From positions 1 to 35,366 of IMG/VR virus record IMGVR_UViG_3300037245_000649: a stretch of DNA of 35,366 bases; one strand, 5' to 3'. Both the position numbers and the translations under genes were made by a program. The notes beneath the pieces are model-generated. The model worked only from the letters and a program-made list of their open reading frames with translations, had not been told where the DNA came from and did no database searches. The DNA comes from a virus. Below are positions 4,803-35,366 of the stretch, piece after piece (the first letter of the stretch is position 1; the number at the start of each line of letters is the position of its first letter).

Positions 4803-6161
4803 CTACCAGTGCTTAGCTATTGTCTGCTCGACTTGCTTCGCTGAAAGTTTATAAGTACGAGGTATTAAACACTCCCCATCTTGCCAGTCGAATTCTACTA
4901 AGTCTTTCGCAAGCATTTCGTTGTACATCTCAGAGACGGGCCAGCCTACTAAACGACCTGCGCCACGCGGTATAAACGAATACGGTAACTGTGACACGTT
5001 GCGAGTGAAAAGTAGCGTTCGTTCGATTTCTTTCTCGCCTTCGTTCGGTGCGCCGACAATAAATCCACCAGAGTAGAACATTTTCTCGCGTTCGAGATTT
5101 TCGATTGCGTGTACTACGTCTTTGAACCGAAAACCCTTGTCTATGTATTGAAGCGTCTCGTCGTTCGCCGATTCAAAGCCCGCACAGATCACACGGCAAC
5201 CGGCGTTCTTCATCATTCGGATTGTGGGCCGATCAAGGACGTTTATACGTGACTGGCAAATCCATGTTAATCCTGTTGATTCGTGGAGCGTTTTGAGTTC
5301 TTTGCAGAGCGATTCAAGATATGTAGCGTTCGCCGTTGTGTTGTCCCCCCTGAAGTGTATTGTTCTGGTGCCGTACAAACGCTGCATCATACGTATTTCG
5401 TCCGCCACAGACGCCGCTGGGCGTGTTTTGTGCCGCTGTTGCCATATTGACTTGCTGCTACAAAACGAACAAGCGTGTGGGCAACCTCTGGACGCTACGA
5501 CGACGTCTGTTGGTGGCTGGCATACGCCATTGCCATCACAGCACTGCGTCGGATGCGTTGGAAACTGAACTCGTTTGTAATTACCAATGTCGATGCAGTC
5601 GCGGGCCGGATATTTCACGTCGTCGAGATTTATGTTTAATGCTGGTGGCGATATTATATCATGGTGACATAAGCCGTCAATCAATTCTGCATCAGGACAC
5701 GCATTTGGGTCTGCGAAATCTAATATGAATTTTCTAAACGACTGCTCAGCCCAACCACGAAAGACGAAATCGAAATATTTAACGTGCTTCGCTGGGTTTG
5801 CGCTGGCATTTGGGCCGCCATAAATTGTACAAATGTCTGGCTGTTGTTCTTTGAGTGACGCGGCGACTTGCGATGCCTGCGGCCACTCCGTCAAAGTGCC
5901 CCCGAATCCTACGATGTCCGGCTTTTGTTTTAAGATGTATTGTGTTAAGTCGTGCGTTGACAACTTCTGGATGTTATTGTCTACGTACGTGACATTGCAA
6001 ACGTCTCGAATCGCTGCGACGATATATAACATGCCGAGGCTGACCATCGGGTTTGGTCGTGGGCCGATGTTTGGGAAACGGTGCTTCTGGTAAAGCTCGA
6101 CGAACGACTCGCGGACTTGGTTTGGGTAGATTAAGATTACTTTAGGTTTTTGATTTGTCAT
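4803..6161 (-). CDS. B12-binding-domain radical SAM enzyme, 452 aa
   Basis: The first ~150 residues form a cobalamin-binding Rossmann-like domain (VILIYPNQ start, DIVGFGGT near 82, IYGGPNAS near 113). The radical SAM core begins with the cluster motif SRGCPHACSFC, whose cysteines are Cys227, Cys231 and Cys234 (C-x3-C-x2-C). They bind a 4Fe-4S cluster that splits S-adenosylmethionine. Later segments (FRGDN, CAGFESAND, GGFIVGAPNEGE) match the rest of the barrel. Members of this class are often radical methyltransferases or ring-rearranging enzymes in natural-product and lipid pathways. The start ATG overlaps the stop of the cytosine methyltransferase (ATGA). The substrate is unknown; the surrounding methyltransferases and glycosyltransferases suggest a modification of DNA, glycan or protein. 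Confidence 0.88.
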   Translation of the reverse strand: MTNQKPKVILIYPNQVRESFVELYQKHRFPNIGPRPNPMVSLGMLYIVAAIRDVCNVTYVDNNIQKLSTHDLTQYILKQKPDIVGFGGTLTEWPQASQVAASLKEQQPDICTIYGGPNASANPAKHVKYFDFVFRGWAEQSFRKFILDFADPNACPDAELIDGLCHHDIISPPALNINLDDVKYPARDCIDIGNYKRVQFPTHPTQCCDGNGVCQPPTDVVVASRGCPHACSFCSSKSIWQQRHKTRPAASVADEIRMMQRLYGTRTIHFRGDNTTANATYLESLCKELKTLHESTGLTWICQSRINVLDRPTIRMMKNAGCRVICAGFESANDETLQYIDKGFRFKDVVHAIENLEREKMFYSGGFIVGAPNEGEKEIERTLLFTRNVSQLPYSFIPRGAGRLVGWPVSEMYNEMLAKDLVEFDWQDGECLIPRTYKLSAKQVEQTIAKHW

Positions 6162-7084
6162 ATAATCAAGTCCTCGAATTGATCAGATGATAATTGCGCG
6201 GCGTTCTGAGCCTCTTGCATAGTCTTATTCCAACGAATACAACTAAAAATATGGGCAATCACATCAACTGTAAACCCGTTCCCAAGTGACTTATGTCTAG
6301 CGGTCTGACACACACAACTTGTATAATTATCCGGGACTGTTTGAAGTCGCTCTTGTTCCAACAAAGTTGTTTTTCGTATTCGTCCATTAGCTGTTAAAAT
6401 GGCAGGCATGTCACCACAAGTTATTGCCATGTGTTTTTTGGTTAAGTACGCAGCTTGACGGCGTTGACTCTGAGAAATTGGCTTTCGAAAGTCATAAAAC
6501 ACGCTGCTACTAGTATAGTTTCGTGAAAGAGTGGCTAAATCATCCAAATATTTGAATGGTCCATCGCTATCAACAATATCCTCAGTTACAAGATTCAAAT
6601 CAACTGGAGTATCTATGTCAACATTTGACCAGTATAATCTATTTCGGCTTTGCGCTGAAAGTACAGACGAGTTTATCAAGACAGGTCGCACACCAAGTTG
6701 TTCAGAAATAACATCTTGATGCTCTTTCTTCATTCTAACGTTTTCAAGAAGAAAATACTTTGGCTTGCATTCTTTTAATAGCCTGACATATTCAAAGAAA
6801 AGCTTGCTACGCTCGTCGCTGAAATTCAACATTTTACCCGCAAATGAAAACCCCTGGCAAGGCGACCCGCCAACAAGCAAATCAATTTTCGGCAAATCTG
6901 TTGCTCTAATCTTTGTCACGTCGCCGAGTTGTATTGTGTTTGGGTAATTATATTGTGTAACTTTCATTGACGCAACTTCAATCTCAGAAGCAAAGTAATT
7001 CGCGACTTTGAAACCCGCCCGCCCTAGTGCTATTTGAGCACAACTAATTCCATCAAACAAAGATAGCACGTTTAGTGGTTTCAT
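6158..7084 (-). CDS. DNA (cytosine-5) methyltransferase, 308 aa, with C-terminal tag
   Basis: The expected C5-methyltransferase motifs are in order: motif I LSLFDGIS-C (SAM binding, residues 7-15), motif IV GGSPCQGFSFAG with catalytic Cys76, motif VI LLENVR (Glu114), motif VIII QSRNRLYW (about 145-152), and near the end a GNGFTVDVI motif X-like helix. The enzyme methylates carbon 5 of cytosine in DNA; its specificity cannot be read here. At 308 aa it is a compact member with a short target-recognition region. The last residues read AAQLSSDQFEDLII, nearly identical to the tail of the endonuclease at 7793 and similar to that at 8587. The stop overlaps the radical SAM start (ATGA). No typical Shine-Dalgarno precedes the ATG. 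Confidence 0.93.
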   Translation of the reverse strand: MKPLNVLSLFDGISCAQIALGRAGFKVANYFASEIEVASMKVTQYNYPNTIQLGDVTKIRATDLPKIDLLVGGSPCQGFSFAGKMLNFSDERSKLFFEYVRLLKECKPKYFLLENVRMKKEHQDVISEQLGVRPVLINSSVLSAQSRNRLYWSNVDIDTPVDLNLVTEDIVDSDGPFKYLDDLATLSRNYTSSSVFYDFRKPISQSQRRQAAYLTKKHMAITCGDMPAILTANGRIRKTTLLEQERLQTVPDNYTSCVCQTARHKSLGNGFTVDVIAHIFSCIRWNKTMQEAQNAAQLSSDQFEDLII

Positions 7085-7121: not shown

Positions 7122-7796
7122 CTAACTCGGCAATCGCAGCATCTTTTCAGCAACGACAAACAACGTTTCGTCGCGATAGTGCGGTTCGTGGACTTTGAAT
7201 GTTTTTAGTATTTTGAATTCATTAGGTCGCTGACCGCTGCTAATATGGCAGGGTTGTCGCGGCTGCTTATGGTTTAATTGACGCATCACAAGTTCTTCAG
7301 TGAGTGTCACTGGATGCCCGTTGCTGGGTTTTGTGCGTAACGGAAACGATCCGAAGAAGAGTCCGCCGGGTTTTAACAGACGTTTGGCTTCGAGCATCCC
7401 AAGTATGAAATGCTCGTTGCTCGTCGCGTGGTCAAAGACGTTCCACGCGAATAACACGTCTGCAATTTCGTCTTTCAATGGTATGTCGTCGAAGTCTGCT
7501 GTTATTGAGTCTATGTGTGGTGGGAGTTTGCCCATTGCTCGGAACTCTGGTGCGAGTGCGTCTACGAGAATTGCCTGTCTTGACGACTCACGTATGTAGT
7601 GTAATGCGCCACCAAACGCGCCGCCACCAATGTCTACAGCTACGTCAATCATACTAATCCCTATTCGCCCGAACTGCTGCATAAAAAACTCTATGACTTC
7701 AAACAGCCCGAATTTTTGGCGGATGTTTGCGAGATAATAGTCGTCCGACTCTGCGTCCCAGTACGCTAGTTCGTGTTCTTTTGTCCAGGGTTTCAT
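7122..7796 (-). CDS. Class I SAM-dependent methyltransferase, 224 aa
   Basis: The SAM-binding glycine loop is VDIGGGAFGGALHYI (about residues 53-67), followed by ILVDAL (the acidic residue after strand 2), a SITADFDDIPL strand 3 region, and VLFAWNVFDH (the strand 4 region). LKPGGLFFGSFPL matches the Methyltransf_11-type strand 5. These features place it among small-molecule or sugar/protein methyltransferases rather than DNA methyltransferases, because no DPPY or PCQ motif is present. Its ATG overlaps the stop of the endonuclease gene (ATGA). It lacks the QLSSD tail seen on its DNA-acting neighbours, which supports the idea that the tail is specific to the DNA enzymes. The substrate is unknown. 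Confidence 0.82.
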   Translation of the reverse strand: MKPWTKEHELAYWDAESDDYYLANIRQKFGLFEVIEFFMQQFGRIGISMIDVAVDIGGGAFGGALHYIRESSRQAILVDALAPEFRAMGKLPPHIDSITADFDDIPLKDEIADVLFAWNVFDHATSNEHFILGMLEAKRLLKPGGLFFGSFPLRTKPSNGHPVTLTEELVMRQLNHKQPRQPCHISSGQRPNEFKILKTFKVHEPHYRDETLFVVAEKMLRLPS

Positions 7797-8578
7797 ATAA
7801 TCAAATCCTCGAAGTCATCGGATGATAGCTGTGCTGCGTTCGTTACAGTTTCTTGAATTTTCTTGATAACAATATCTTTTGCATCTTTTACATCATGTTC
7901 CCAAAACCGAATCACAGTATACCCAGCCTTCTTCATATACGCATCTTGCGATTTATCTAAGTTGCATCGTTTCTTCTGACGAGCATCTTTTATCCCATCA
8001 TATCCATGCCAATAGTCACCATCCCACTGAATCACGATATTAAGTTCGGGTATGAGAACATCTACAACAAACTTCTTACAAATAAGCACCTGCGCCAAAT
8101 ATTCAATCTTCAGTGTGTCTAATAATCGGCACTCTGCGACTTCTAACTTATTTGGGCTCTTGTTATTCTGCTGTACAAGGTTTCCCTCAATCACTGCGTT
8201 GCGTTTCCAGGCGGGACACGCTGTTCTGCATTCTATGGAACAGTACGTAGGATTGTGCTTGGATATTCTTGACGGACTCCACTTAAATTCATTGCCACAC
8301 GTCTTACAAGTAAACTTTAATTTATTCCTGCCTTGCCACTGATTAGCACACTGCGCAGAACAAAAATAGTGCTTACGTTCTGGGTACGCTTTTGGTTTAT
8401 ATGACTCCCCGCCACAAACATCACACAGAATATTCCTACCCGTTTTGCATTGTGGTTTGTTAGACCTACGATAGCAGGCCAACGAACAATACTTTGTGTT
8501 CTTAACTGGCCTCCTTGTTTCTACTTCTATACCGCAGCCTATACACTTAAATCGTCTTATTTTATACTGATTATTCAT
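7793..8578 (-). CDS. Zinc-finger plus Vsr/DUF559-like endonuclease, 261 aa, with C-terminal tag
   Basis: The N-terminal half contains three cysteine clusters, each with a C-x2-C pair and a later C-x3-C pair (CIGCG…YCSLAC, CDVCG…FCSAQC, CKTCG…YCSIEC), probably zinc fingers binding DNA. The C-terminal half is a PD-(D/E)XK-type nuclease of the Vsr/DUF559 style: a helix with LEVAE, VVDVLIPELN, IVIQWDGDYWHG, and AGYTVIRFWEHDV. A glutamine stands where many relatives have the acidic residue before the DG (IVIQWDG). It ends in AAQLSSDDFEDLII, the shared tail. I choose ATG at 8578 because the extension above it has only a TTG. It follows the DNA methyltransferase stop by 8 bases, so the two may work on the same DNA sites as a restriction or mismatch-repair-like pair. 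Confidence 0.82.
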   Translation of the reverse strand: MNNQYKIRRFKCIGCGIEVETRRPVKNTKYCSLACYRRSNKPQCKTGRNILCDVCGGESYKPKAYPERKHYFCSAQCANQWQGRNKLKFTCKTCGNEFKWSPSRISKHNPTYCSIECRTACPAWKRNAVIEGNLVQQNNKSPNKLEVAECRLLDTLKIEYLAQVLICKKFVVDVLIPELNIVIQWDGDYWHGYDGIKDARQKKRCNLDKSQDAYMKKAGYTVIRFWEHDVKDAKDIVIKKIQETVTNAAQLSSDDFEDLII

Positions 8579-8586
8579 GGCGTGAC

Positions 8587-10170
8587 TCAAATTAACAAAT
8601 CACCAAAATCATCAGAAGAAAGTTGTTCCGCGACGCCGCTTATTTCCTCCGCAGTCATCTGCGTATCCACAACCTCTTCAAACGTATGCTTGATGCTCCT
8701 CGAAGTTGCTATCATTACATGATCTAAGATCATGTCTATTCCAATGTACTTCATTCCATTTGCTTCTGCCGCAAGCAGCGTCGTACCTGAGCCACAAAAT
8801 GGGTCTAAGACTATTTGCGGCTTATCCTGGTTTGGCATTTTGATTAACTTACACAGATAATCCATTATAGCTAATGGCTTCGTCGTAGGGTGATTGTTGC
8901 GAAGACACTTGCCTGCTGGCCTGTTTGTTTTGGCGTCCGCCGTATGTTGTTCGGTGCCAAACTCACAGCACTGAGCGCATGGCACAAAATCTTTTAATCC
9001 AAACTCGCGTTCGCTTCGACTTGCTTTGGCTGTGTAGAAGAATCTCGACGCTCCGCCGGAGTCTCCTGGGTAGGTTGGTCCTTGCGGCTGATAGTTTCCT
9101 TGTCCGGGTCTAAATTTACTTTCTGGTTTTGCGCTACTCGGACTGTTACAAGACGGTCGATTTCCGCTTTGGGCATCCATGATGCGAATCGGACAATCGG
9201 GGACGCAGGCGTAAACGTCGATCGTCTCCTGGCCGTTCTCGTCACCGTGCATTATTGTCGTATGCTTATTGGGCTTATATCCCCAAGAACCTATAATAGT
9301 CTCATGACTATAAACGCCATCTTTGCAATTTGGGCGATTATTACCCTTGATTTGTTGCGTGCCGACTTGTACGCAGTCCAGCGAGTGACTTAGGATTACG
9401 TTTGCGGGCCAACGTCCTGACGGTTGCACAAACTCAGACTGAATTACTTTAGTTGCGTAACTTGTTGCTTGTGACGATTGTTTCTTACTGTTGCAATTTG
9501 GATCATAACCGCCACCATTAAGACTGTCGCTTGTCGAAATACGACCTGCGTCTATGTTCAAACCGGCGACGCCCCACTTGCGGGCGTTTTGGGCGTATGT
9601 TAATCCCTTTTCGAGTGGCTTCATTGCCAAGATGATCGGCTCGAACGCTGGTTTCAACGCTGTTCCGTATCCGTTCCATTGTTTTGCGATGTCCGTCGCG
9701 GGGTGCGAATACACGAATCTCTCAGCCTTATCTGCCTGCGCGAAAGTTACGCCTGCCGTAATGCGGGGTTTGCGTTCTTGAATTGCGTATATCTCTCGCT
9801 TTGCGCCTGCTTCCTTGTCCAACGCTTTGCTTATGTCCATGCTCTTCGGAAATCCGCTGCCATAAATCCACATTAGCGAGTCTTTCAACTGCCAACCCGC
9901 GTCTTCGATTGCACAAGCTACGCGGTGGTACGTCCGCGTCCCGCCGAAGCAGAACAACGTTGCGCCGGGCTTTGCAACTCGCAAGACTTCTTCCCACATT
10001 GTGACGTTATACGCTACGCCGCTCGCGTCCCATGCCTTCGACATGAAGCCAAGCTCGTAAGGTGGATCAGTTATGACCGAGTCAAAGAAGTTCGACGGAA
10101 AGTCTTTCAGGACGTCTTGATTCTTGCCATGCAAAACTCGATTTAGTTTTATTTTGTTTGGGTTTAGCAT
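8587..10170 (-). CDS. Beta-class N4/N6 DNA methyltransferase, 527 aa, with C-terminal tag
   Basis: Motif IV DPPYELGF (catalytic, Asp35-Tyr38 from the chosen start) comes near the N-terminus, and motif I DPFCGSGTTLLAAE plus YIGIDM near the C-terminus. This IV-then-I order defines the beta class, which methylates adenine N6 or cytosine N4. The GSGFPKSMDI stretch after motif IV and a long middle target-recognition region match common phage enzymes. I choose ATG at 10170 (reading MLNPNKIKLN): the longer frame up to 10293 would overlap the glycosyltransferase gene by 95 bases and adds unlikely sequence. The last residues are AEQLSSDDFGDLLI, a variant of the tail on the two other DNA enzymes. It may protect phage DNA from host restriction. 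Confidence 0.9.
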   Translation of the reverse strand: MLNPNKIKLNRVLHGKNQDVLKDFPSNFFDSVITDPPYELGFMSKAWDASGVAYNVTMWEEVLRVAKPGATLFCFGGTRTYHRVACAIEDAGWQLKDSLMWIYGSGFPKSMDISKALDKEAGAKREIYAIQERKPRITAGVTFAQADKAERFVYSHPATDIAKQWNGYGTALKPAFEPIILAMKPLEKGLTYAQNARKWGVAGLNIDAGRISTSDSLNGGGYDPNCNSKKQSSQATSYATKVIQSEFVQPSGRWPANVILSHSLDCVQVGTQQIKGNNRPNCKDGVYSHETIIGSWGYKPNKHTTIMHGDENGQETIDVYACVPDCPIRIMDAQSGNRPSCNSPSSAKPESKFRPGQGNYQPQGPTYPGDSGGASRFFYTAKASRSEREFGLKDFVPCAQCCEFGTEQHTADAKTNRPAGKCLRNNHPTTKPLAIMDYLCKLIKMPNQDKPQIVLDPFCGSGTTLLAAEANGMKYIGIDMILDHVMIATSRSIKHTFEEVVDTQMTAEEISGVAEQLSSDDFGDLLI

Positions 10171-10198
10171 TGTTGATCTGGTTCGCCGTGTAGGTTGG

Positions 10199-11041
10199 TC
10201 AACTGAACTTTGCAATTTCATCTTTGAAAACTCGTTGGGTTTCTTCGTGGCCGAGATGCAACATGATTGGCGGTATTGGCATTTGCTGACCACGAAGTTG
10301 TTGCGTGTATTGTTTTATGTACTCAGCTTCGCCACCGCATACACACCACTGTTGTGGCAAGTACAACGGCGTGAATCCTGTTTGCCATGAAGCCTTGGTT
10401 ACCGCGAGCGTGCCTCTGCAAGTGTTGTCACGCAGTTCGCTTTGCAATGTAATTAGAAAGTTGCGTGCTCGATTGTGTTTCGGCGATACGAAGAACGGCG
10501 CGAAGTTTACGGCGGGCGAGTGACTAGGCACGCCTATTCGCCACAAATCGTCGAGGTCTTTTTTTAAGACGTCTGCGCCAAATGCGTTCGCCCAGGTGTA
10601 TATTCTTGGATTTAATGGCAACGCTGCGCCGAATCGTTCAGCCATGTCGAAACCATCAACGAAATTCTTGTCAATAATTAGCATGTCGTCGTCGAGAAGC
10701 AATATCGAGTCGAATTGAATGCTCGAATAATCTTGCAACTTGAACGACTCAGTGACTACCCACTTGACTTTGTAGTAGTTGCTATTACGCACGCCGCTGC
10801 GTGGTTGGTGTGCTGGCCAGAGTCGCGTGACGTATTCTCGATGTATGCCCCCGAAAAAGTATGCATCGCCAATATTAGAGTCTTCCGTCGTGATAATGTG
10901 AATTGGGTAGTCAACGAAACGTCTGATGTTGTGTACAAGTCGTTCGACTTGCGTCGCGCGGTCGCCAAATGCTGCGATTACTATTGCGCGTTTGGGTTGT
11001 TTCTTTTTGTCTGTGATTTTGTTTTCTGGTTCACTTGTCAT
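10199..11041 (-). CDS. GT-A-type glycosyltransferase, 280 aa
   Basis: The protein opens with RAIVIAAFGDRA, a nucleotide-sugar-binding strand, after a basic start. Near the middle is SILLLDDDMLII, the acidic DxD-like motif that holds the metal and sugar nucleotide in GT-A enzymes. Downstream come NPRIYTWANAFGADVL and the substrate-side segment QTGFTPLYLPQQWCVCGGEAEY. No transmembrane helix or signal is visible, so it should act in the cytoplasm. The start codon overlaps the stop of the larger glycosyltransferase (ATGA), so the two are translationally coupled and probably act one after the other. The acceptor could be modified DNA, a virion protein or a small molecule; sequence does not decide. 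Confidence 0.78.
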   Translation of the reverse strand: MTSEPENKITDKKKQPKRAIVIAAFGDRATQVERLVHNIRRFVDYPIHIITTEDSNIGDAYFFGGIHREYVTRLWPAHQPRSGVRNSNYYKVKWVVTESFKLQDYSSIQFDSILLLDDDMLIIDKNFVDGFDMAERFGAALPLNPRIYTWANAFGADVLKKDLDDLWRIGVPSHSPAVNFAPFFVSPKHNRARNFLITLQSELRDNTCRGTLAVTKASWQTGFTPLYLPQQWCVCGGEAEYIKQYTQQLRGQQMPIPPIMLHLGHEETQRVFKDEIAKFS

Positions 11042-12627: not shown

Positions 12628-12701
12628 TGGACAAGACTGGAATCGAACCAGCGGCCTTTCCGGTGCAAACGGAACGCTCTACCTAGCTGAGCTACAAGCC
12701 C
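12628..12701 (-). tRNA. tRNA-Ala (anticodon TGC), acceptor stem partly mismatched
   Basis: The minus strand folds as a cloverleaf of 74 bases. The anticodon stem is TTCCG/CGGAA around loop TTTGCAC, giving anticodon TGC at 12665-12667. The D stem is GCTC/GAGC and the T arm GCTGG-TTCGATT-CCAGT. The acceptor strands are GGGCTTG and CTTGTCC with discriminator A. The third pair is G3-U70, the classic alanine identity element, which strongly supports the call. The fifth and sixth pairs are both T-T mismatches. CCA is not encoded. It reads in the same direction as the surrounding genes. Confidence 0.85.
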
Positions 12702-12723
12702 TAGAGCAATAATTATAATTCCT

Positions 12724-12782
12724 GCGGCGGACGCCCTCGATTTATAATGTAGGTGTCGGTTAGACGTTGAGTCGTCCGCCGC
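12724..12782. repeat. 9-bp perfect GC-rich inverted repeat (hairpin) between the two tRNA genes
   Basis: GCGGCGGAC at 12724-12732 and GTCCGCCGC at 12774-12782 are perfect reverse complements separated by 41 bases. As RNA on the minus strand this would form a very stable stem in the spacer between tRNA-Pro and tRNA-Ala. I looked for a third tRNA here: the length (59 bases) and the missing TTCGA-type T-loop do not fit. It may be a tRNA remnant, a processing signal, a small structured RNA or a terminator-like element; a short AT-rich stretch (12706-12722) follows in the transcript. Confidence 0.5.
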
Positions 12783-12817
12783 GTATGATAAACGCCCTGC
12801 TCCCTAGCTAAAATGAA

Positions 12818-12891
12818 TCGGAATGGGAAGACTCGAACTTCCAATCTCTGCGCCCCAAACGCAGCGCCCTGCCAAATTAGGCTACACTCCG
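12818..12891 (-). tRNA. tRNA-Pro (anticodon TGG)
   Basis: The minus strand folds as a full cloverleaf of 74 bases: acceptor CGGAGTG/CATTCCG (one G-U pair) with discriminator A, anticodon stem CTGCG/CGCAG around loop TTTGGGG giving anticodon TGG, and T arm GGAAG-TTCGAGT-CTTCC. A C1-G72 first pair is the hallmark of bacterial proline tRNAs. CCA is not encoded, so the host enzyme must add it. It probably supplements a host tRNA pool for CCN codons. Confidence 0.92.
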
Positions 12892-12974
12892 AAACACCCA
12901 CCACATTTGAGCTTTAGCAACGTGCTGCATAGCGAAGTTGGCTTGGCGGGTACATTGTTGTTCATTGTGTCATC

Positions 12975-20199: not shown

Positions 20200-20316
20200 T
20201 CAAAGATTCTGAACATACTTGATAAACGCAACGACGCTCGACGCCACGTTGTACGGCCCGATGATTATTGTTGTTGCGGCGATCGCGCCGGTTAGAAGTC
20301 CTGTTATGAATTTCAT
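20200..20316 (-). CDS. Membrane microprotein, 38 aa
   Basis: This short frame begins MKFITGLLTGAIAATTIIIG and is one hydrophobic helix with a short amphipathic end (VVAFIKYVQNL). Its ATG overlaps the stop of the upstream gene (ATGA) and GAGGAG lies ten bases before it; its stop overlaps the Shine-Dalgarno of the next gene. This tiling makes it convincing despite its size. Possible roles include holin-like or membrane-partner functions, but the sequence does not decide. Confidence 0.6.
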   Translation of the reverse strand: MKFITGLLTGAIAATTIIIGPYNVASSVVAFIKYVQNL

Positions 20317-20531
20317 TCTTTCAACTCCTCGTCTTCGTCTTTAAGCTCATTATCAATAAAGTATTCTACATCGCCCGGCTGGATTTCACATCCCAACTTT
20401 GCTTTCATCCATTCCAAAGCTTCTCGATACCAGTATTCTGCAATTGTTTTGCATTCATCACAAGCCATGCCTGCACAATTGACACCAAGGTCACAATCGA
20501 AAGGATTAAATTTGTCTTCAAAGTTTTTCAT
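20313..20531 (-). CDS. Hypothetical Cys-containing protein, 72 aa
   Basis: Not recognised. The first third carries four cysteines (FDCDLGVNCAGMACDEC), a likely metal-binding knuckle, followed by a helix (IAEYWYREALEWMKAK) and an acidic tail (DNELKDEDEELKE). GGAG precedes the ATG at 20531. It overlaps the membrane microprotein start by four bases. Confidence 0.65.
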   Translation of the reverse strand: MKNFEDKFNPFDCDLGVNCAGMACDECKTIAEYWYREALEWMKAKLGCEIQPGDVEYFIDNELKDEDEELKE

Positions 20532-20588
20532 TATTCGTCTCCAAGTCCACCTTTGGTTTATTTAACACACGACATTGCTTACAGTAGT

Positions 20589-20696
20589 TTACAATAGATT
20601 TGCGGCGGCAACAAGGCCAACAAGAAACGACACAAGTATAATTTCGAGTGTGTGGTTGATTAGCCATTTGCGGATTGCTTTTGTTTTAGTTTTCAT
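20589..20696 (-). CDS. Membrane microprotein, 35 aa
   Basis: The frame begins with basic residues (MKTKTKAIRKWLIN) and continues into one hydrophobic helix (IILVSFLVGLVAAANLL), so the positive end should stay in the cytoplasm. CCGGAG lies eight bases before the ATG. The start lies 40 bases after the NADAR gene. No homology is recognisable at this length; it could be a small inhibitor or holin-like peptide. Confidence 0.55.
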   Translation of the reverse strand: MKTKTKAIRKWLINHTLEIILVSFLVGLVAAANLL

Positions 20697-20735
20697 TCTT
20701 GTTCTCCGGTTTATTGTGTTTGGTTTCAATATTGC

Positions 20736-21194
20736 TTAATGCTGCACATCATGTTTCTCATCGTAGCAAATTCTATCTTCACGAATCTGCATTAGAATCT
20801 TGCCAAGATGATTCAAGCCAAACTTCCCGACGCACTGCGGACAGCAGCAGTTGCCCCAGAAATTATCGTGCCACATATTTTCTTCTTCGATATACGTTGG
20901 CCAAGTATTTAATAACTTTCTCATTAACAAGATATTCTGGTCAAACTTCGCAAGAACAATCTCACGCATTGTTTCGAGTTGCTTGTCTTTCCAGTCAGCG
21001 CAACGCACAATGATATTCCCTAGTCTCTTTGCTTCCACCGGCGTCGCAGCGTTGAGAATCTTTTGCACGTCTTCGCCGTTCAATGCTTTCGCAGCTTGAA
21101 ACGCATGTTCCGCTGTTGTCCAGGTTTCGTTTTGATATTGAATTTTACAGTTGTGAAAGTTGCTGAGAAACGAATACTCTTTTCTGAATTTCAT
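20736..21194 (-). CDS. NADAR (YbiA/DUF1768-like) domain protein, 152 aa
   Basis: The protein matches the NADAR family along its length: EYSFLSNFHNCKI at the start, TWTTAEHAFQAAKAL (about 26-40) with the conserved Glu-His pair, NIIVRCADWKD, LAKFDQNILLMRKLLNT, and near the end MWHDNFWGNC…GLNHLGKILMQIR. NADAR enzymes break N-glycosidic bonds in ADP-ribosylated or related nucleosides; some reverse guanine ADP-ribosylation, and E. coli YbiA acts in riboflavin-intermediate clearance. In a phage it could reverse a host ADP-ribosyltransferase defence. A CCCPQC insert near residue 117 is unusual. AAAGG precedes the ATG. It is the first gene leftward of the repeat-rich control region. Confidence 0.88.
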   Translation of the reverse strand: MKFRKEYSFLSNFHNCKIQYQNETWTTAEHAFQAAKALNGEDVQKILNAATPVEAKRLGNIIVRCADWKDKQLETMREIVLAKFDQNILLMRKLLNTWPTYIEEENMWHDNFWGNCCCPQCVGKFGLNHLGKILMQIREDRICYDEKHDVQH

Positions 21195-21420
21195 TGTGTG
21201 CCTTTCTACGTTTGACGTTCGGTTATAAATATCATTCGCGGGAAGAAGAATTGTAGCTAGGTGTATTAGTTGAAAATGCGTCTGTTGTTTGGCAATCCCG
21301 CGTGCGCACGGAAACTTTTGCTGAACGTTTGAAAATTTATTTCAATGTTGCGTTTATTACAAATCTCTTTCCCGTGGTTACTATGTCAAACAGGCCTGAA
21401 ACACGCTTGAAACCATGCCG

Positions 21421-21461
21421 CGTAATACAACTATAATACAACGAAAATACAACAATAATAC
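21421..21461 (+). repeat. Left arm of inverted AATACAAC array
   Basis: Four boxes of the form AATACAAC or AATACAAA are spaced about 11 bases apart, roughly one helical turn. The 31 bases at 21431-21461 match the reverse complement of 21711-21741 at 29 positions, and the 10 bases before them match partly as well. Helically phased boxes suit cooperative protein binding on one face of DNA. Confidence 0.75.
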
Positions 21462-21506
21462 AAACAGACGTATACTTAACTGTATATTCTAACAGTAGTT
21501 ATGTAT

Positions 21507-21646
21507 GCGTAATACAAGTAATACAACTTTTAGAAGAAAGTTGCCCACGCGCGTAGTAAATAATCAGATAATAGTATATACTACTATATTATAAGCGCCT
21601 ATGGCAGCAGTGCGAACCAAAACTTGTATTATTTGTATTACCGAAA
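21507..21646. repeat. Inner inverted box pair and central palindrome
   Basis: GTAATACAAGTAATACAACT near 21508 and a stretch near 21623 reading CTTGTATTATTTGTATTACC are inverted relatives of each other and of the outer arms. Between them lies an AT-rich core with the palindrome TAGTATATACTA. The nested symmetry centres on about 21580. Confidence 0.6.
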
Positions 21647-21710
21647 TTTTTGGCGAACGTAACTATTGGTAAATTATACGGTTACGTCATAACATAGTGA
21701 CACTACATTT

Positions 21711-21751
21711 GTATTATAGTTGTATTATCGTTGTATTATAGTTGTATTATT
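21711..21751 (-). repeat. Right arm of inverted AATACAAC array
   Basis: Repeats of TTGTATTAT with about 11-base spacing, the reverse complement of the left arm (29 of 31 positions between 21711-21741 and 21431-21461). Together the arms enclose about 250 bases of AT-rich DNA. Confidence 0.75.
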
Positions 21752-21768
21752 TACGTCCTCAACGACAC

Positions 21769-21856
21769 ACAACGCACATATTTTCAATATACAACGCACA
21801 TATTTTCAATATACAACGCACATATTTTCAATATACAACGCACATATTTTCAATAT
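21769..21856. repeat. Four perfect 22-bp tandem repeats
   Basis: The unit ACAACGCACATATTTTCAAT plus AT is repeated four times without change (21769, 21791, 21813, 21835) and a decayed fifth copy (ACAACGTACGTATT) follows. Each unit spans about two helical turns, as in iterons. Translation of the plus strand through it is a repeat artefact. Confidence 0.9.
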
Positions 21857-21893
21857 ACAACGTACGTATTCCAACAAGCACGTGCGTATTAAA

Positions 21894-22024
21894 ACTTGCA
21901 GCCTCGCGGGAATGAGAATTATAACTTGCAGCCTCGCGGGAATGAGAATTATAACTTGCAGCCTCGCGGGAATGAGAATTATAATTTTACAGCCTCGCGG
22001 GAATGAGAATTATAATTTTACAGC
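21894..22024. repeat. Four 30/31-bp tandem repeats, second iteron set
   Basis: Three identical 30-bp units starting ACTTGCAGCCTCGCGGGAAT (21894, 21924, 21954) are followed by a 31-bp variant starting ATTTTACAGCCTCGCGGGAA (21984) and a partial copy that ends at 22024, just past the stop of the gene to the right. The shared core is CAGCCTCGCGGGAATGAGAA. Three helical turns per unit and position next to the replication gene suggest initiator binding sites. Confidence 0.9.
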
Positions 22025-22027
22025 ACG

Positions 22028-22294
22028 TCAGCATTCAACTGGTTTAATTAACTGTGCTACTTTAATAACTTCAATTGCATCCATCAGTGACATATTGGGG
22101 TCCATTAGATTCAAATACTCTTTGACAAGCATAGCGTAGTCTAAAAACCCCCTTACATCAGTACCGTAGTAGTCAAGGATTTCACTAGTTAGGCGATTAA
22201 ACTGCGTACAATCATCTGAACTATCTTCAGGTGTCTTAAAATCTCGCCCGTTCATAATATCAGCAATTCTCTGCTCAAGCTCTTTTTCTCTCAT
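22028..22294 (-). CDS. Hypothetical protein after the primase-helicase, 88 aa
   Basis: Not recognised. A mainly helical, charged protein beginning MREKELEQRIADIMNG, with an acidic loop (FKTPEDSSDDC) and hydrophobic helices (EILDYYGTDVRGFLDYAML, LMDAIEVIKVAQLI). The ATG at 22294 has GGAG six bases upstream; earlier in-frame starts lie in a 25-bp duplicated leader and lack a well-placed ribosome site. Its stop abuts the 30-bp repeats, so it is the last gene of the early operon and could be a replication accessory. Confidence 0.6.
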   Translation of the reverse strand: MREKELEQRIADIMNGRDFKTPEDSSDDCTQFNRLTSEILDYYGTDVRGFLDYAMLVKEYLNLMDPNMSLMDAIEVIKVAQLIKPVEC

Positions 22295-22295
22295 T

Positions 22296-22345
22296 TCATT
22301 CTCCAATAGCATTTCAAAACTCATTCTCCAATAGCATTTCAAAAC
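22296..22345. repeat. 25-bp perfect tandem duplication at the helicase stop
   Basis: TCATTCTCCAATAGCATTTC plus AAAAC occurs twice in direct contact (22296-22320 and 22321-22345). On the minus strand it covers the helicase stop codon and the ribosome-binding site (TTGGAG) of the next gene, so both a stop and a GGAG are present twice. It lengthens the spacer without changing the helicase end. Confidence 0.85.
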
Positions 22346-24897
22346 TCGTTCCTCGCGGCCCCTGGCGCACAACGGTCGTCAAGAGTTCCGTCAGTTCCCG
22401 TTCGTCGTAAACCAGACCAACGCCATGTTGTAGTTTTGTCACCAGTTCTACTCCCTGTTGACTTATCAATATGCCGCGTATTAATCTTCTTCTTACTAAT
22501 CCCAGATATCGAAGACAATGCATCTTTGAATTGCGGCCCGCTTAATTTATTTTTAACTCTAAACTCTTCACAATATTGATCGTAGTACGTCTCCATATCT
22601 TTCAACTTAACAACCCACTGTACAACGTCGCCCGGCTCATTCTGATCAAACCAGTCACGAACAAGTCTCAAAACAGGATTCGCACCAGTTTCAAATTGTT
22701 CACGCATCTCAGCAGACGATGCAGGCTCAATAAACCCGTCGTTGGCAATTAATTTCTCACCAGATTCGAGTACAAGATTCATTAATCCGGGCAATTCACT
22801 GCGCCACACATCTATAATATTAATTATCATGTCGCCACCACGAACGTAAACATGTTTGAACACCAGAAACTTTAGTCTTACAGCCAAACCACTAGAATTA
22901 GCGTGCATACGCAGCGGTTTATTACCTGCGATAATCATCTGTGCTGGAATAATCCGCGTCTCAATAATGCCGCCCTTTCTCTCAACACGTATTGGCTGGC
23001 CTGCTGCAATGCTTAACATATTTTCTGTAAGCGTGCCATCCATAAAGTCTTTTTTCGTTACATTTTCATCGTCACACATCAGTACTTTAGAGAATATTGT
23101 CCTGAACAATTCAAATTGATTTCCAATTTTACTAAGACTTATTGCTTCGCAACTTTTCACACCAATAAATTCAGCAATTAGTTGTAAGTATTTTGATTTA
23201 CCTGTATCAGGTAGCCCAACCATACTTAGAATACTTTTGTACTTACCCGGCGCAGATATCATACACAGAAATATAAATTGCAAGAACAACTCTATTGATT
23301 CGACGTCATCATCCCACTGCACCCGTAGCGACTCTTGAATTTTTGGGCACTTTGCGCCGGCGTCATAATCAAATGGCAACGCATGGCGAGCGATGCACGA
23401 CTGCATGTTTCTAGGATAAGCACGTCGCGACGGGATATGAAAGTTGCTGCTTTTCATAATCACTATGTCACTTGCCGCCCAGTCGCGTTCATGCTCTGGC
23501 ATGTATGAACTCCGAAAAATGGGCATAGTTGCGTGCTTATGTATGTCAAGCCCGACCTCTATTTGACATGCGCGCAGAATCTCTTCGTAATCTCTCGGTG
23601 TTCCTTTGAACGGCGCGTTGGGGTCTTTAGATTTTCCGTCACCGCAGTATTTCAACATCCGTTGAATCGTTTTGAGTTGCGTGTCCGGTTCAGTCTCATT
23701 ATAGAGCAGTGACTTTATGCATCCTTTCAACCAGTCTTTATCATAAGACAACAGCAGCCCGTCGGTCAACGAGTGATAAACGCTGTACCACGTTTCCCAG
23801 ATTGGGCCGGGAAATCCCTTCTCAAATATCAAGCCCGTCATCTCGCCGTTTTCAATTCGTGCTTTGATCGACTCGCATGGCTGCCACTCTTGCAAATCGT
23901 TACTCAACGCGAGTGCCAAGAGTGCAGCTTTCGCTCTCGCGTTTCCGTCATCTGCCCGCCCAACACCAGCACCCACACCGTTCAACGCCCAACTAGCGTC
24001 ACGTCCAGAACCACCTACATTCAACCAATCAGTGACGTCACTATGATTGCCAATCTCTTTCAGGCCGGGCAGCCTAAGTAACTTTACGCTTGTACTTTTT
24101 CCGTATCTATTATGCGCAGCTTTGAGCGCTTTCGTCTCGCCTGCGTTCATGCCGTTCGTGCTATCTTCGTCATAGTCAACGAGAATAACCACACAACGAC
24201 CGTCGAGCGGCGAAGTGTCAGTCTTAATCCAATCGTTAATTAGTGCGGCGGTAGGTGTTAGACCCAGCTTCCGCAGAGTCTTCGCGTCTTTTGACCCTTC
24301 GCACATAAATACTATATTGCCATCACCGCGCTCAGCGCCGTCGTCATTCTCGCTCTTCCGCGACACAACAACGCCATGTAGATTATATAGTATCCGCAAC
24401 CCACCGCCTGCACCGCCTGCGCCACCCCCACCGTCCTTCGGCACGCCGTAAATCCACTTATCAGCACGCTTGCCTTTGCTATCTACATGCACTGCAACTT
24501 TCGCACCGTCGCTGTCAATGCTATCAACTGTTTTGCTATACTTTGGATTCAAACGACGAACGGCGAAACGACTTTGACTTGTCTCTTTATCGTACTTAAC
24601 TTCCTGATATAAAAGTTCTCCATCTTCTGTTATAAAGTCATAGGTAGCAATGATTTGTGGCGCGCCATACAGAATTCCCAACCCGCTGAATCCCATTGCA
24701 GATACAATTTCAATTACCTTGCAACCGCCGTGACATTGTATGCCAATCTTGCCGTTCTCATTGAGCGTCGTCCATAGCGAATTATTTGCATCCCCGTGCG
24801 ACGGGCAGAGAGACATACACTGGTATTCCGCCTGCTTCTGCACGCCTTGAAGCTTGCCAATAAACTTCTCAAAGCGATTTATATCCTCTTGTTTCAT
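22339..24897 (-). CDS. Primase-helicase: CHC2 zinc finger, Toprim and SF3 (D5-like) helicase, 852 aa
   Basis: The N-terminus has a primase zinc finger (Cys27, Cys31, His34, then CHGGC at 55-59). A glycine-rich linker lies at 156-166. The Toprim domain shows MCEGSKD (Glu200) and ILVDYDED (Asp241, Asp243), which bind the metals for primer synthesis. The C-terminal third is a superfamily 3 helicase: Walker A GLPDTGKSK (561-569), Walker B VLMCDDEN (about 605-612) and the sensor IIAGNKP (about 655-661), with the preceding D5-N-like region. The combination gives primer synthesis and unwinding in one chain at the replication fork. Its last residues (GAARNEF) fall in the duplicated 25-bp segment. The origin-like repeats lie two genes away. 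Confidence 0.93.
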   Translation of the reverse strand: MKQEDINRFEKFIGKLQGVQKQAEYQCMSLCPSHGDANNSLWTTLNENGKIGIQCHGGCKVIEIVSAMGFSGLGILYGAPQIIATYDFITEDGELLYQEVKYDKETSQSRFAVRRLNPKYSKTVDSIDSDGAKVAVHVDSKGKRADKWIYGVPKDGGGGAGGAGGGLRILYNLHGVVVSRKSENDDGAERGDGNIVFMCEGSKDAKTLRKLGLTPTAALINDWIKTDTSPLDGRCVVILVDYDEDSTNGMNAGETKALKAAHNRYGKSTSVKLLRLPGLKEIGNHSDVTDWLNVGGSGRDASWALNGVGAGVGRADDGNARAKAALLALALSNDLQEWQPCESIKARIENGEMTGLIFEKGFPGPIWETWYSVYHSLTDGLLLSYDKDWLKGCIKSLLYNETEPDTQLKTIQRMLKYCGDGKSKDPNAPFKGTPRDYEEILRACQIEVGLDIHKHATMPIFRSSYMPEHERDWAASDIVIMKSSNFHIPSRRAYPRNMQSCIARHALPFDYDAGAKCPKIQESLRVQWDDDVESIELFLQFIFLCMISAPGKYKSILSMVGLPDTGKSKYLQLIAEFIGVKSCEAISLSKIGNQFELFRTIFSKVLMCDDENVTKKDFMDGTLTENMLSIAAGQPIRVERKGGIIETRIIPAQMIIAGNKPLRMHANSSGLAVRLKFLVFKHVYVRGGDMIINIIDVWRSELPGLMNLVLESGEKLIANDGFIEPASSAEMREQFETGANPVLRLVRDWFDQNEPGDVVQWVVKLKDMETYYDQYCEEFRVKNKLSGPQFKDALSSISGISKKKINTRHIDKSTGSRTGDKTTTWRWSGLRRTGTDGTLDDRCAPGAARNEF

Positions 24898-29486: not shown

Positions 29487-30737
29487 TTAATTATGTATTT
29501 TAGTATCGTAACAAAACGCAATAATCGAGTCGAGCGACTCGCCCATGACGACTTTGCTTTGAAGGTCAGCAACGGTCACATCTTTACAAAGGTCACCAAG
29601 CTTTGGCGCAACACACTTGCCATCGCCCGGGTCAATACCAAAGAACGCCTCAGCAAATTCGTCAAAGACTTCGCCCGTGACGTACCCCAACTCTAGTTTC
29701 ACGTCGATACGACCCGGTCGAAGCAGCGCGGCGTCGAGTTTCTCAATATGGTTCGTCGTCATAATAACAACTCTGCCATGACTAATTGATATTCCGTCTA
29801 GCGCGTTTAGTATTCCCGAAATCCCGCCGCTGATAATTGCTTTCGTACTTTCACTGTACTTATTTTCGCCGTCTTTATTTTTGGCGTCTCTATTTGAAGT
29901 GGACGGATTAGAATCAATATCCTCGACGACAATAATATCTTTGTCATCTTCAAAATCAGCTACTGCGTCAAGTTGCCATGCGGGAATTACGGCAAGTCCT
30001 GTATCAAGATGTGCGGCGATTGCACGAATCAACGAAGTCTTTCCGGTTCCGGGCGGTCCATGAAGTAAGATTCCAAGCTGGTATGGTATTCCATGTTCAA
30101 TGTACCATTGTTCACTGTCTTTGAATTTTTTGAGTGTGTCGAGCAACTGACAACGCAAGTCTGATGACATAAAAATTGAATCAAGATTTCGTTTTGGCTG
30201 CTTCGATGTAGACCAGCATTCCTTGTTGTATTTACGGATCATTGTCATCGTGCCAGAATCTTTGTCGCTGCATTTTTTTATTTCAGTCAAGAGTTTGTCA
30301 AAAAGGGAGTGCCCGCGACCCAGTTTTGATAACACAACTTCTTCTTTGTCCTGGCTTGTGCGAGTATCAACGCGAGTGAGTTCAATTAGCAACGGTGTCT
30401 TACAGTACCACATTAAGTGGCACCCGTAACCAACAGTCTTAATTGTGTCGCTTTCACCCCATGTGCCATTAGTAATTTTTAATCGCCTGAATTTTTTACT
30501 ATATCCGTTAGCCTCAAGCCAGATCATTAAGTGGTAGAACGACTTATGGTATGACGTAATTGTGATAGACGTAGTCAAGTGCTTTTTCACAAACCGTGCT
30601 ACGTCCGTCGGGACTTTCCTCAACAAGTACGTGGCGACGCCGAGAATCCAAGCGGAAATCGCAGCGGCCATAAATTGGTTGCCGCCGGACACACTTGTTA
30701 TCCATGCCAATACTGTTGTCAGCAAATTTTCAATCAT
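29487..30737 (-). CDS. BCS1-like AAA+ ATPase with N-terminal membrane helix, 416 aa
   Basis: Residues about 21-40 form a hydrophobic segment (QFMAAAISAWILGVATYLL), a probable membrane anchor, as in BCS1. A BCS1_N-like beta region follows (FYHLMIWLEANGYS, and a strand pattern to about residue 120). The AAA core has Walker A HGPPGTGKT (226-234), Walker B IIVVEDID (268-275), then ISGILNALDG, VIMTTNHIEKLDAALLRPGRID (sensor 1 and arginine finger region). Mitochondrial BCS1 moves a folded protein across a membrane. In a phage it may remodel or translocate a protein at the host membrane. An acidic/Ser-rich insert follows the Walker B. AGGAG precedes the ATG. Confidence 0.87.
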   Translation of the reverse strand: MIENLLTTVLAWITSVSGGNQFMAAAISAWILGVATYLLRKVPTDVARFVKKHLTTSITITSYHKSFYHLMIWLEANGYSKKFRRLKITNGTWGESDTIKTVGYGCHLMWYCKTPLLIELTRVDTRTSQDKEEVVLSKLGRGHSLFDKLLTEIKKCSDKDSGTMTMIRKYNKECWSTSKQPKRNLDSIFMSSDLRCQLLDTLKKFKDSEQWYIEHGIPYQLGILLHGPPGTGKTSLIRAIAAHLDTGLAVIPAWQLDAVADFEDDKDIIVVEDIDSNPSTSNRDAKNKDGENKYSESTKAIISGGISGILNALDGISISHGRVVIMTTNHIEKLDAALLRPGRIDVKLELGYVTGEVFDEFAEAFFGIDPGDGKCVAPKLGDLCKDVTVADLQSKVVMGESLDSIIAFCYDTKIHN

Positions 30738-34102: not shown

Positions 34103-34762
34103 TTAAACTTCTTTGAATTTCTGTGAACATTCACTTCTCGCAATGTCGCAGAATTTACATTCCATGCGACTCGGAGTCTTACGACACGCTACTTCTGGAC
34201 CAATTATTTTGTCGATCGTCGCGAAAATTTGGTCTCTTAAACCAGTATCATCCGCGATCGTGTTCGGAATCTGAATGTTGGGCGTGCCTTCTTTGTAAAC
34301 GACGCAGCCACTAAACTTTGTTGTGGCGTAGCCGGGCACTGCCAGCGGGAGCATCTGAATATAGATATACACTTGGACACTATCACTTGTTTTCGGCTTT
34401 CCCGATTTGGCATCCGAAATTTCTGCAAACTCAGTGCCATCATTATTCTGTCCGAATGCGAGTATGTCTGGTTTGGCTGAGATGACACACTTGTGCCCTG
34501 CGTTGCTACAATAGTCAAGTTTGAACGAGTTCTGATCTTCGATTAGTACACGATGTCCCCGCGCAGTCAGCTCGTCAACTCTACTTCGCAGAATCTTTGT
34601 GTGCGCTATGTTCCACATCGCCGAGTTAAAGTCACTAGGAGTCTTGTCATAGTTCTGGTAGTGACATTTTAGCCAGCTCTTGAAAAAACAGTTGTCTTCG
34701 CCCGCTATTAATCGAGTAATCCAAGTCGGCCAAACAAACGGAACTTTGCGTAAAGTTTTCAT
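34103..34762 (-). CDS. Cas4/RecB-like Fe-S PD-(D/E)XK nuclease, 219 aa
   Basis: The nuclease core is SAKPDILAF (Asp99) followed by FAEISDAKSGKPK with D-x-K (Asp117, Lys119) and an adjoining helix SDSVQVYIYIQML, which resembles the Q-x(2)-Y helix of RecB-family enzymes. An N-terminal cysteine (DNCFFKSW) and three C-terminal cysteines (MECKFCDIARSEC) can hold a 4Fe-4S cluster as in Cas4. Such proteins are 5'-3' exonucleases in recombination, or, in phage, processing of host or phage ends. The ATG overlaps the HNH gene stop (ATGA). No cas1 or cas2 neighbour and no CRISPR array is visible. Confidence 0.78.
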   Translation of the reverse strand: MKTLRKVPFVWPTWITRLIAGEDNCFFKSWLKCHYQNYDKTPSDFNSAMWNIAHTKILRSRVDELTARGHRVLIEDQNSFKLDYCSNAGHKCVISAKPDILAFGQNNDGTEFAEISDAKSGKPKTSDSVQVYIYIQMLPLAVPGYATTKFSGCVVYKEGTPNIQIPNTIADDTGLRDQIFATIDKIIGPEVACRKTPSRMECKFCDIARSECSQKFKEV

Positions 34763-35366
34763 ATTAAAATGTCCTTTAGACTTTCAAAATCGTATTCATC
34801 AGTATTGTAAACAAAGTCTAATTCGTCAGACTTGTTCATAGATCGGATTTCCCTTTCTATTGTTGAGTGACAACTGTTGCATAACGTCTGAATGTTACTG
34901 GGTACGTCATTATAGTGGTTGGAATCCTTATGGTGAATATGCAACTGCCTACCCGTGTCTTTAATTTCTGCCTCTTGAGTTTTGTTGCACCTTTGGCACG
35001 TATACTTGTCACGTCTCCGCATTTCGTTGTAGAATTTTATCGTGGCAGTGTGCGCACCATCTGTGTACCCTGGGCCAGATTCACCCGTCATTCGTTCTCT
35101 TGCTGCGTCATCTCGATAGCAACCACAACTTTGACTTTTGCCGCTGCGTAAACTGTCGCCCCTAACTACACGTTCTTCGCTGCAATCACATTTGCACAGC
35201 CAAGCAACTTCGCCGTGTATCCTTGTGCTAAGTTCTCGGACAACACGCCAACGTCCAAACTTTTGACTCATTAAATCTATATCGGATTGATAGCAGCCGC
35301 AACTTTGACTATTGCCGTTGCGCAGATTCAACCCGCGCACAGATTTCTCTCTAGTGCAATCGCAAC
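34759..35366 (-). CDS. HNH endonuclease with SCGC repeats, N-terminus cut by window edge
   Basis: The visible C-terminal ~200 residues include the end of one repeat (CDC-x3-KSVRGLNLRNG-x-SQSCGC), a full repeat (FGRWRVVRELS…CKCDCSEERVVRGDSLRSG…SCGC), an ERMTGESGPGYTDG linker, and an HNH nuclease: YTCQRCNKT…LHIHHKDSNHYNDVPSNIQTL-CNSCH. The repeat and linker are the same kind as in the GIY-YIG protein at 3730. The frame stays open to the window edge, so the N-terminus lies outside. It is likely a homing endonuclease. The end DEYDFESLKDILI is weakly like the shared tail of the DNA enzymes. Confidence 0.88.
   Translation of the reverse strand, partial: CDCTREKSVRGLNLRNGNSQSCGCYQSDIDLMSQKFGRWRVVRELSTRIHGEVAWLCKCDCSEERVVRGDSLRSGKSQSCGCYRDDAARERMTGESGPGYTDGAHTATIKFYNEMRRRDKYTCQRCNKTQEAEIKDTGRQLHIHHKDSNHYNDVPSNIQTLCNSCHSTIEREIRSMNKSDELDFVYNTDEYDFESLKDILI

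Follow-up and report, generated by a model that had tools for sequence, protein, structure and literature searches.

The window analysed here is the whole of IMG/VR record IMGVR_UViG_3300037245_000649 (35,366 bases), which is classed as linear and is therefore probably a fragment. Its assigned genes lie on the minus strand throughout and include those for portal, terminase, methyltransferases, NADAR, an SF3 primase-helicase, a BCS1-like ATPase and others; the terminase large subunit and portal genes mark the element as a phage and not a helper-dependent satellite. Within this series is a gap of about 830 bases (21195-22027) that is gene-free, as the preliminary description of the sequence had proposed, the sole long frame in it being mostly translated repeats. 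It was likewise correct that the primase-helicase is the second gene from the gap, with a small ORF standing between them. The features of the region, in order of position, are:

20736-21194, minus strand: NADAR-domain gene, the far-side boundary of the gap
21236-21258, no strand assigned: diverged single copy of the 30-bp motif (TCGCGGGAAGAAGAATT, 83%), 42 bp upstream of the NADAR gene
21423-21464, plus strand: outer left array, four TAATACAAC-type boxes at 11-bp pitch (9-mers at 21423, 21434, 21445 and 21456)
21509-21531, plus strand: inner left doublet, boxes at 21510 and 21519, 9-bp pitch
21558-21597, no strand assigned: central AT-rich segment (AT 0.80), the proposed melting site
21619-21641, minus strand: inner right doublet, boxes at 21623 and 21632, 9-bp pitch
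21708-21749, minus strand: outer right array, four inverted boxes at 11-bp pitch (21708, 21719, 21730 and 21741)
21720-22139, plus strand: sole long frame in the gap, 139 aa, largely a translation of repeats
21769-21856, plus strand: four 22-bp direct repeats, with the core ATACAAC at 21789, 21811, 21833 and 21855
21883-22018, no strand assigned: four 30/31-bp direct repeats, which contain CAGCCTCGCGGGAATGAGAATTATAA and are unrelated to the boxes
22028-22372, minus strand: small ORF between the primase-helicase gene and the gap, following the primase-helicase gene
22339-24897, minus strand: SF3 primase-helicase, 852 aa, the proposed initiator

The small ORF is without a family match, and its real start is probably an internal ATG. 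The NADAR-domain gene, which adjoins the proposed origin, belongs to the riboflavin-intermediate N-glycosidase family and has a weak match to a NADAR anti-phage family. Elsewhere in the window, a BCS1-like AAA ATPase (BCS1_N + AAA) is encoded at 29487-30737 and has relatives in many large phages; genes for tRNA-Ala(TGC) and tRNA-Pro(TGG) are adjacent at 12628-12892, and none lies in the repeat region. Three neighbouring and otherwise unrelated minus-strand genes, for a C5 methyltransferase (6158-7084), a DUF559 protein (7793-8590) and an N6/N4 methyltransferase (8587-10293), end in near-identical C-terminal tails, AxQLSSD(D/Q)F(E/G)DL(I/L)I, a looser version of which (YDFESLKDILI) closes the HNH protein at 34759-35364; the common element is possibly a docking tail.

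The exact box word TAATACAA is found 11 times in the 35-kb window, both strands counted, and every copy falls within 21423-21749, where six copies in one orientation are followed by five in the opposite one, with a single run of each. The commonest 8-mer of the 833 bp is present in 11 copies, compared to a maximum of 4 in 1000 dinucleotide shuffles, and the best inverted repeat of the 381-bp core scores 36, where 500 shuffles gave no more than 20; the repeats are real and stand well above chance. The outer arms (42 nt, 95% complementary, centre 21586) correspond to the inverted repeat originally placed at 21431-21461 and 21711-21741, but are slightly longer, reaching from 21423 to 21464 and from 21708 to 21749. 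The inner arms (23 nt, 91% complementary) are centred at 21575, 11 bp from the outer dyad centre, and contain the inner inverted boxes that had also been reported; the accompanying view that the outer boxes are helically phased holds, at an 11-bp pitch, and the inner ones have a pitch of 9 bp, not 11.

Of all 40-bp stretches enclosed by the boxes, the richest in AT (0.85) lies between the two inner doublets; across the whole record, it belongs to the top 0.1% of such windows. The central AT-rich palindrome noted in the preliminary description is indeed there, as a perfect 12-bp TAGTATATACTA centred between 21577 and 21578. With centres at 21586, 21575 and 21577.5 for the outer arms, inner arms and palindrome, respectively, the strong symmetry claimed about position 21580 is near-concentric and not exact. 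All 11 exact boxes fit the dyad, forming iteron sets of opposite orientation on either side of the AT-rich region.

Both of the additional iteron sets said to accompany the boxes are present, but the set of 22-bp repeats is not unrelated to the boxes, because the core ATACAAC is common to both. It comprises the four exact repeats that had been counted, as identical contiguous copies flanked by degenerate edges, and holds the box core at a two-turn spacing, an occurrence whose chance for a random 22-bp unit is 0.5%. The 30/31-bp repeats also number four, as described, with copies starting at 21883, 21913, 21943 and 21974. The motif TCGCGGGAATGAGAATTATAA is found in four copies at this end of the gap; one more, diverged, lies at the opposite end, close to the start of the NADAR gene.

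The primase-helicase is made up of an N-terminal zinc/TOPRIM-like region, an SF3 AAA+ domain at about residues 505-780 and a C-terminal helix-helix-strand-strand element. Its family matches consist of DUF5906, a weak match to papillomavirus E1 and several phage primase PHROGs (phrog_864, 5.6e-26); the match to TIGR01613, 'phage/plasmid primase, P4 family' (2.7e-18, 65.9 bits), lies under the curated cut-off of 108.7. A PDB sequence search with the window primase alone returned no match. An eight-sequence profile proved too divergent for use in scanning; a profile made from eight related phage primase proteins matches entry 7ola (1.2e-86). An AlphaFold model of the protein, confident between about residues 364 and 836 and of low confidence ahead of them, has as its best PDB matches 7ola/7om0 (E 1.8e-17), the primase-helicase of SaPI5, an initiator whose putative origin is located just downstream of its own gene. 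Within the last 90 residues, model residues 762-828 form a helix, helix, strand, strand succession in the order expected of a winged helix; the RFX winged-helix family is matched by two aligned primase relatives, and the isolated C-terminal domain model of the window protein is unreliable (pLDDT 44). This secondary-structure pattern suggests that the C-terminal domain is a winged helix; in phage P4, DNA binding involves a C-terminal winged helix. The array is located on the 3' side of the primase-helicase gene, with the outer array beginning about 590 bp past the gene and the small ORF in between.

Scanning proteins directly with the primase and terminase of the window revealed no close relative, and blastn of the repeat region against phages gave no match. 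The nearest genome relative, L096, matches the window in terminase (65%), portal (51%) and radical-SAM protein (56%) and has glycosyltransferase genes, all arranged in a similar order; its 29-kb fragment has many structural genes in common with the window and contains neither the primase nor the array. When viral contigs were scanned for a pattern of three phased AATACAAC boxes, five loci emerged, none of which has a protein matching a window protein; some of these loci carry a different 11-bp repeat, from another phage group. Three loci of another phage group (L003, L005 and L006), which are without any protein in common with the window, contain four tandem 11-bp boxes of the AATACAACCAA type, along with TGTTTGACTCAAACA palindromes at scattered positions.

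Because the collections searched gave no close relative with the window primase, phages with distant SF3 primases were compared instead: 80 viral contigs and seven cultured or environmental phages, corresponding to 53 non-redundant loci, each scored for the strongest 7- or 8-mer cluster in every 600-bp window. In 15 of the 53 loci, compared to 4.7 expected (binomial p=4e-5), the 600-bp window immediately downstream of the SF3 gene holds the strongest cluster; directly upstream placement, found in 6 of the 53 against the same expectation of 4.7, is not enriched. At a score of at least 5.4, a cut-off chosen after the table was seen, the top cluster adjoins the SF3 gene in 17 of 23 loci. As a strong cluster is absent from the other 30 of the 53, about half of the loci, the rule is common and not universal. 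In unrelated viruses, noncoding DNA adjoining such genes tends to carry the strongest word cluster of its locus, for the most part around the segment richest in AT.

The box word itself varies by lineage (GGGACAA, ACGGTAA, AGTGTAAC, CCCGTGAC and others), and same-orientation doublets spaced by 8-12 bp, with a mode of 9 bp, are found in 16 of 18 adjacent arrays (17 of 19 if the window is included). In at least 12 of these 18 arrays, in whose choice AT content played no part, the most AT-rich 40 bp belongs to about the top 0.2% of the locus. Most comparison arrays fall short of a perfect dyad and, tested singly, give no significant dyad. L031 and L033, whose primases are the nearest to that of the window among those found (24%), show box sets mirrored about a segment of 93-95% AT, directly upstream of the gene.

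This arrangement has counterparts in characterized mobile elements. The origins of PICIs lie 3' of rep and consist of two iteron sets around an AT-rich region, and a PICI rep-ori segment worked in a plasmid test (PMC6092414); the Rep helicase of SaPIs recognises iterons through its C-terminal domain, with the origin directly downstream of the gene (PMC7581432). The window resembles these systems in having an SF3 initiator helicase, fused to a primase as in SaPI5, and two inverted iteron sets that flank an AT-rich region near the 3' side of the initiator gene (PMC6092414, PMC7581432). It differs from them in lying in a tailed phage instead of a satellite, in its two tiers of boxes per side (an inner 9-bp doublet and an outer 11-bp quartet), in the extra 22-bp and 30-bp repeat sets, and in the small ORF between gene and array. 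Because the SaPI/PICI layout here sits inside a phage, what is common to them is the type of replicon, and the element is not a satellite. The symmetry of the locus is more elaborate than that of a simple iteron origin, as the preliminary description rightly stated, although its layout was already known from SaPI/PICI replicons.

The alpha protein of phage P4, which acts with ori1 and crr, likewise combines a TOPRIM-type primase and an SF3 helicase in one protein with short iterated boxes (PMC4234260); unlike in P4, no second distant cis region was found in the window fragment, and the window primase is only weakly similar to the P4-family model, below its cut-off. The D5-type helicase Cch2 of SCCmec also binds short repeats downstream of its gene via its C-terminal domain (PMC7581432), but its putative origin has three 5-nt direct iterons, compared to the dyad of 12 boxes in the window. 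Similarly, the ORF904 primase-SF3 protein of pRN1 has its origin just downstream of the gene (PMC4234260), whereas this is a 100-nt stem-loop without iterons, served by an archaeo-eukaryotic primase, in place of iterated boxes. The box word of P4 differs from that of the window.

Taken on its sequence, 21195-22027 is probably the replication origin of a tailed phage and would belong to the pri-rep-ori class found in SaPI/PICI elements and phage P4. An origin had been put forward in the preliminary description as a candidate, and comparison supports it through the SF3 initiator family, the recurrence of the layout near such genes and the PICI/SaPI literature. Strand composition does not enter into this assignment. 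Synonymous-site AT and GC skew switches at about 20.4-22.4 kb, at the array and within the stretch 20313-22400 (gene-order permutation, 0/200), despite the one-strand arrangement of the genes; however, the sign of the switch is opposite to the usual leading-strand bias, which is an excess of G and T, and its position coincides with a gene-module boundary, so that it is not counted as origin support. Raw GC skew is confounded by one-strand coding and the fragmentary record; since the 35-kb record is a fragment, whole-genome skew and coverage are unreadable, and a further origin may sit beyond it.

The region contains ten promoter-like sites, mostly on the minus strand and three of them within the 22-bp repeats, against 4.9 +/- 2.0 expected from shuffles, so a regulatory role for part of it is possible alongside origin function. 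Together with the synonymous-site composition switch and the diverged 30-bp motif that precedes the NADAR start, this would suit a transcription control region placed where two gene modules meet, with boxes and/or repeats that bind a phage regulator of the leftward genes (NADAR onward). Such an explanation of the whole locus is nevertheless unlikely, considering that AT-rich repeats inflate promoter-like matches and that a regulator does not predict mirrored box sets around an AT peak recurring near SF3 primases in unrelated viruses. Moreover, a Pfam scan of the window proteins tested recognised no ParA/ParB, integrase or DNA-binding regulator, which weakens both alternatives raised in the preliminary description, control by a phage transcription factor and a partition system. 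Tandem iterons combined with direct repeats, both of which are present here, resemble plasmid centromeres and could in principle be the partition site of a phage-plasmid; but neither ParA nor ParB nor ParM was matched by Pfam among the window proteins scanned (the record being a fragment), the neighbouring gene encodes an initiator-type primase-helicase, and a dyad with an AT-rich centre is a feature of origins, leaving this possibility with hardly any weight.

It is also very improbable that the locus is a structured origin of the pRN1 type, at which the inner inverted repeat would extrude and the resulting structure, instead of the boxes, would be recognised. As single-stranded DNA, the inner inverted repeat does fold better than its shuffles (z -2.45), and a stem-loop like that of pRN1, lying downstream of an SF3 replication gene, has been published (PMC4234260); yet the hairpin is only moderate, the inversion of the boxes alone accounts for the fold, and an Rfam search produced only chance-level matches, under the family cut-offs. 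The repeats are, on the other hand, clearly iterated boxes with a helical pitch, and a single hairpin needs no 12 boxes in four groups.

With the region read as an iteron origin, the neighbouring SF3 primase-helicase would bind the TAATACAAC boxes via its C-terminal domain, and two opposed helicase rings would assemble, one per inverted box set. The core would be formed by the inner 9-bp doublets; the outer arrays, at 11-bp pitch, would increase occupancy or constrain the DNA. The AT-rich palindrome between the rings would then melt, after which the rings would separate and both forks be primed. The 22-bp repeats may act as accessory initiator sites, for loading or copy control, and the 30-bp repeats could be a separate element, perhaps regulatory. 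More tentatively, and with a rather low likelihood, the origin could be two-tiered, presenting one initiator box at 9 bp in the inner doublets, at 11 bp or one helical turn in the outer arrays and at 22 bp or two turns in the side array; these tiers might serve distinct initiator states, namely ring loading at the inner boxes, a filament-like or DNA-constraining state at the outer ones and copy control at the side array.

In summary, the gap would be a further member of an already known class of replication start sites, with no new mechanism involved, and it places a compact candidate origin of clear limits near a predicted initiator in an uncultivated phage. Together with the distant loci, it suggests a rule whereby a lineage-specific 7-8-bp word, arranged in 9-bp doublets around a local AT peak, lies near phage SF3 primase-helicase genes. 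Such a rule would allow origins to be predicted in many uncultivated phages, and the box-specificity code of their initiators to be tested.
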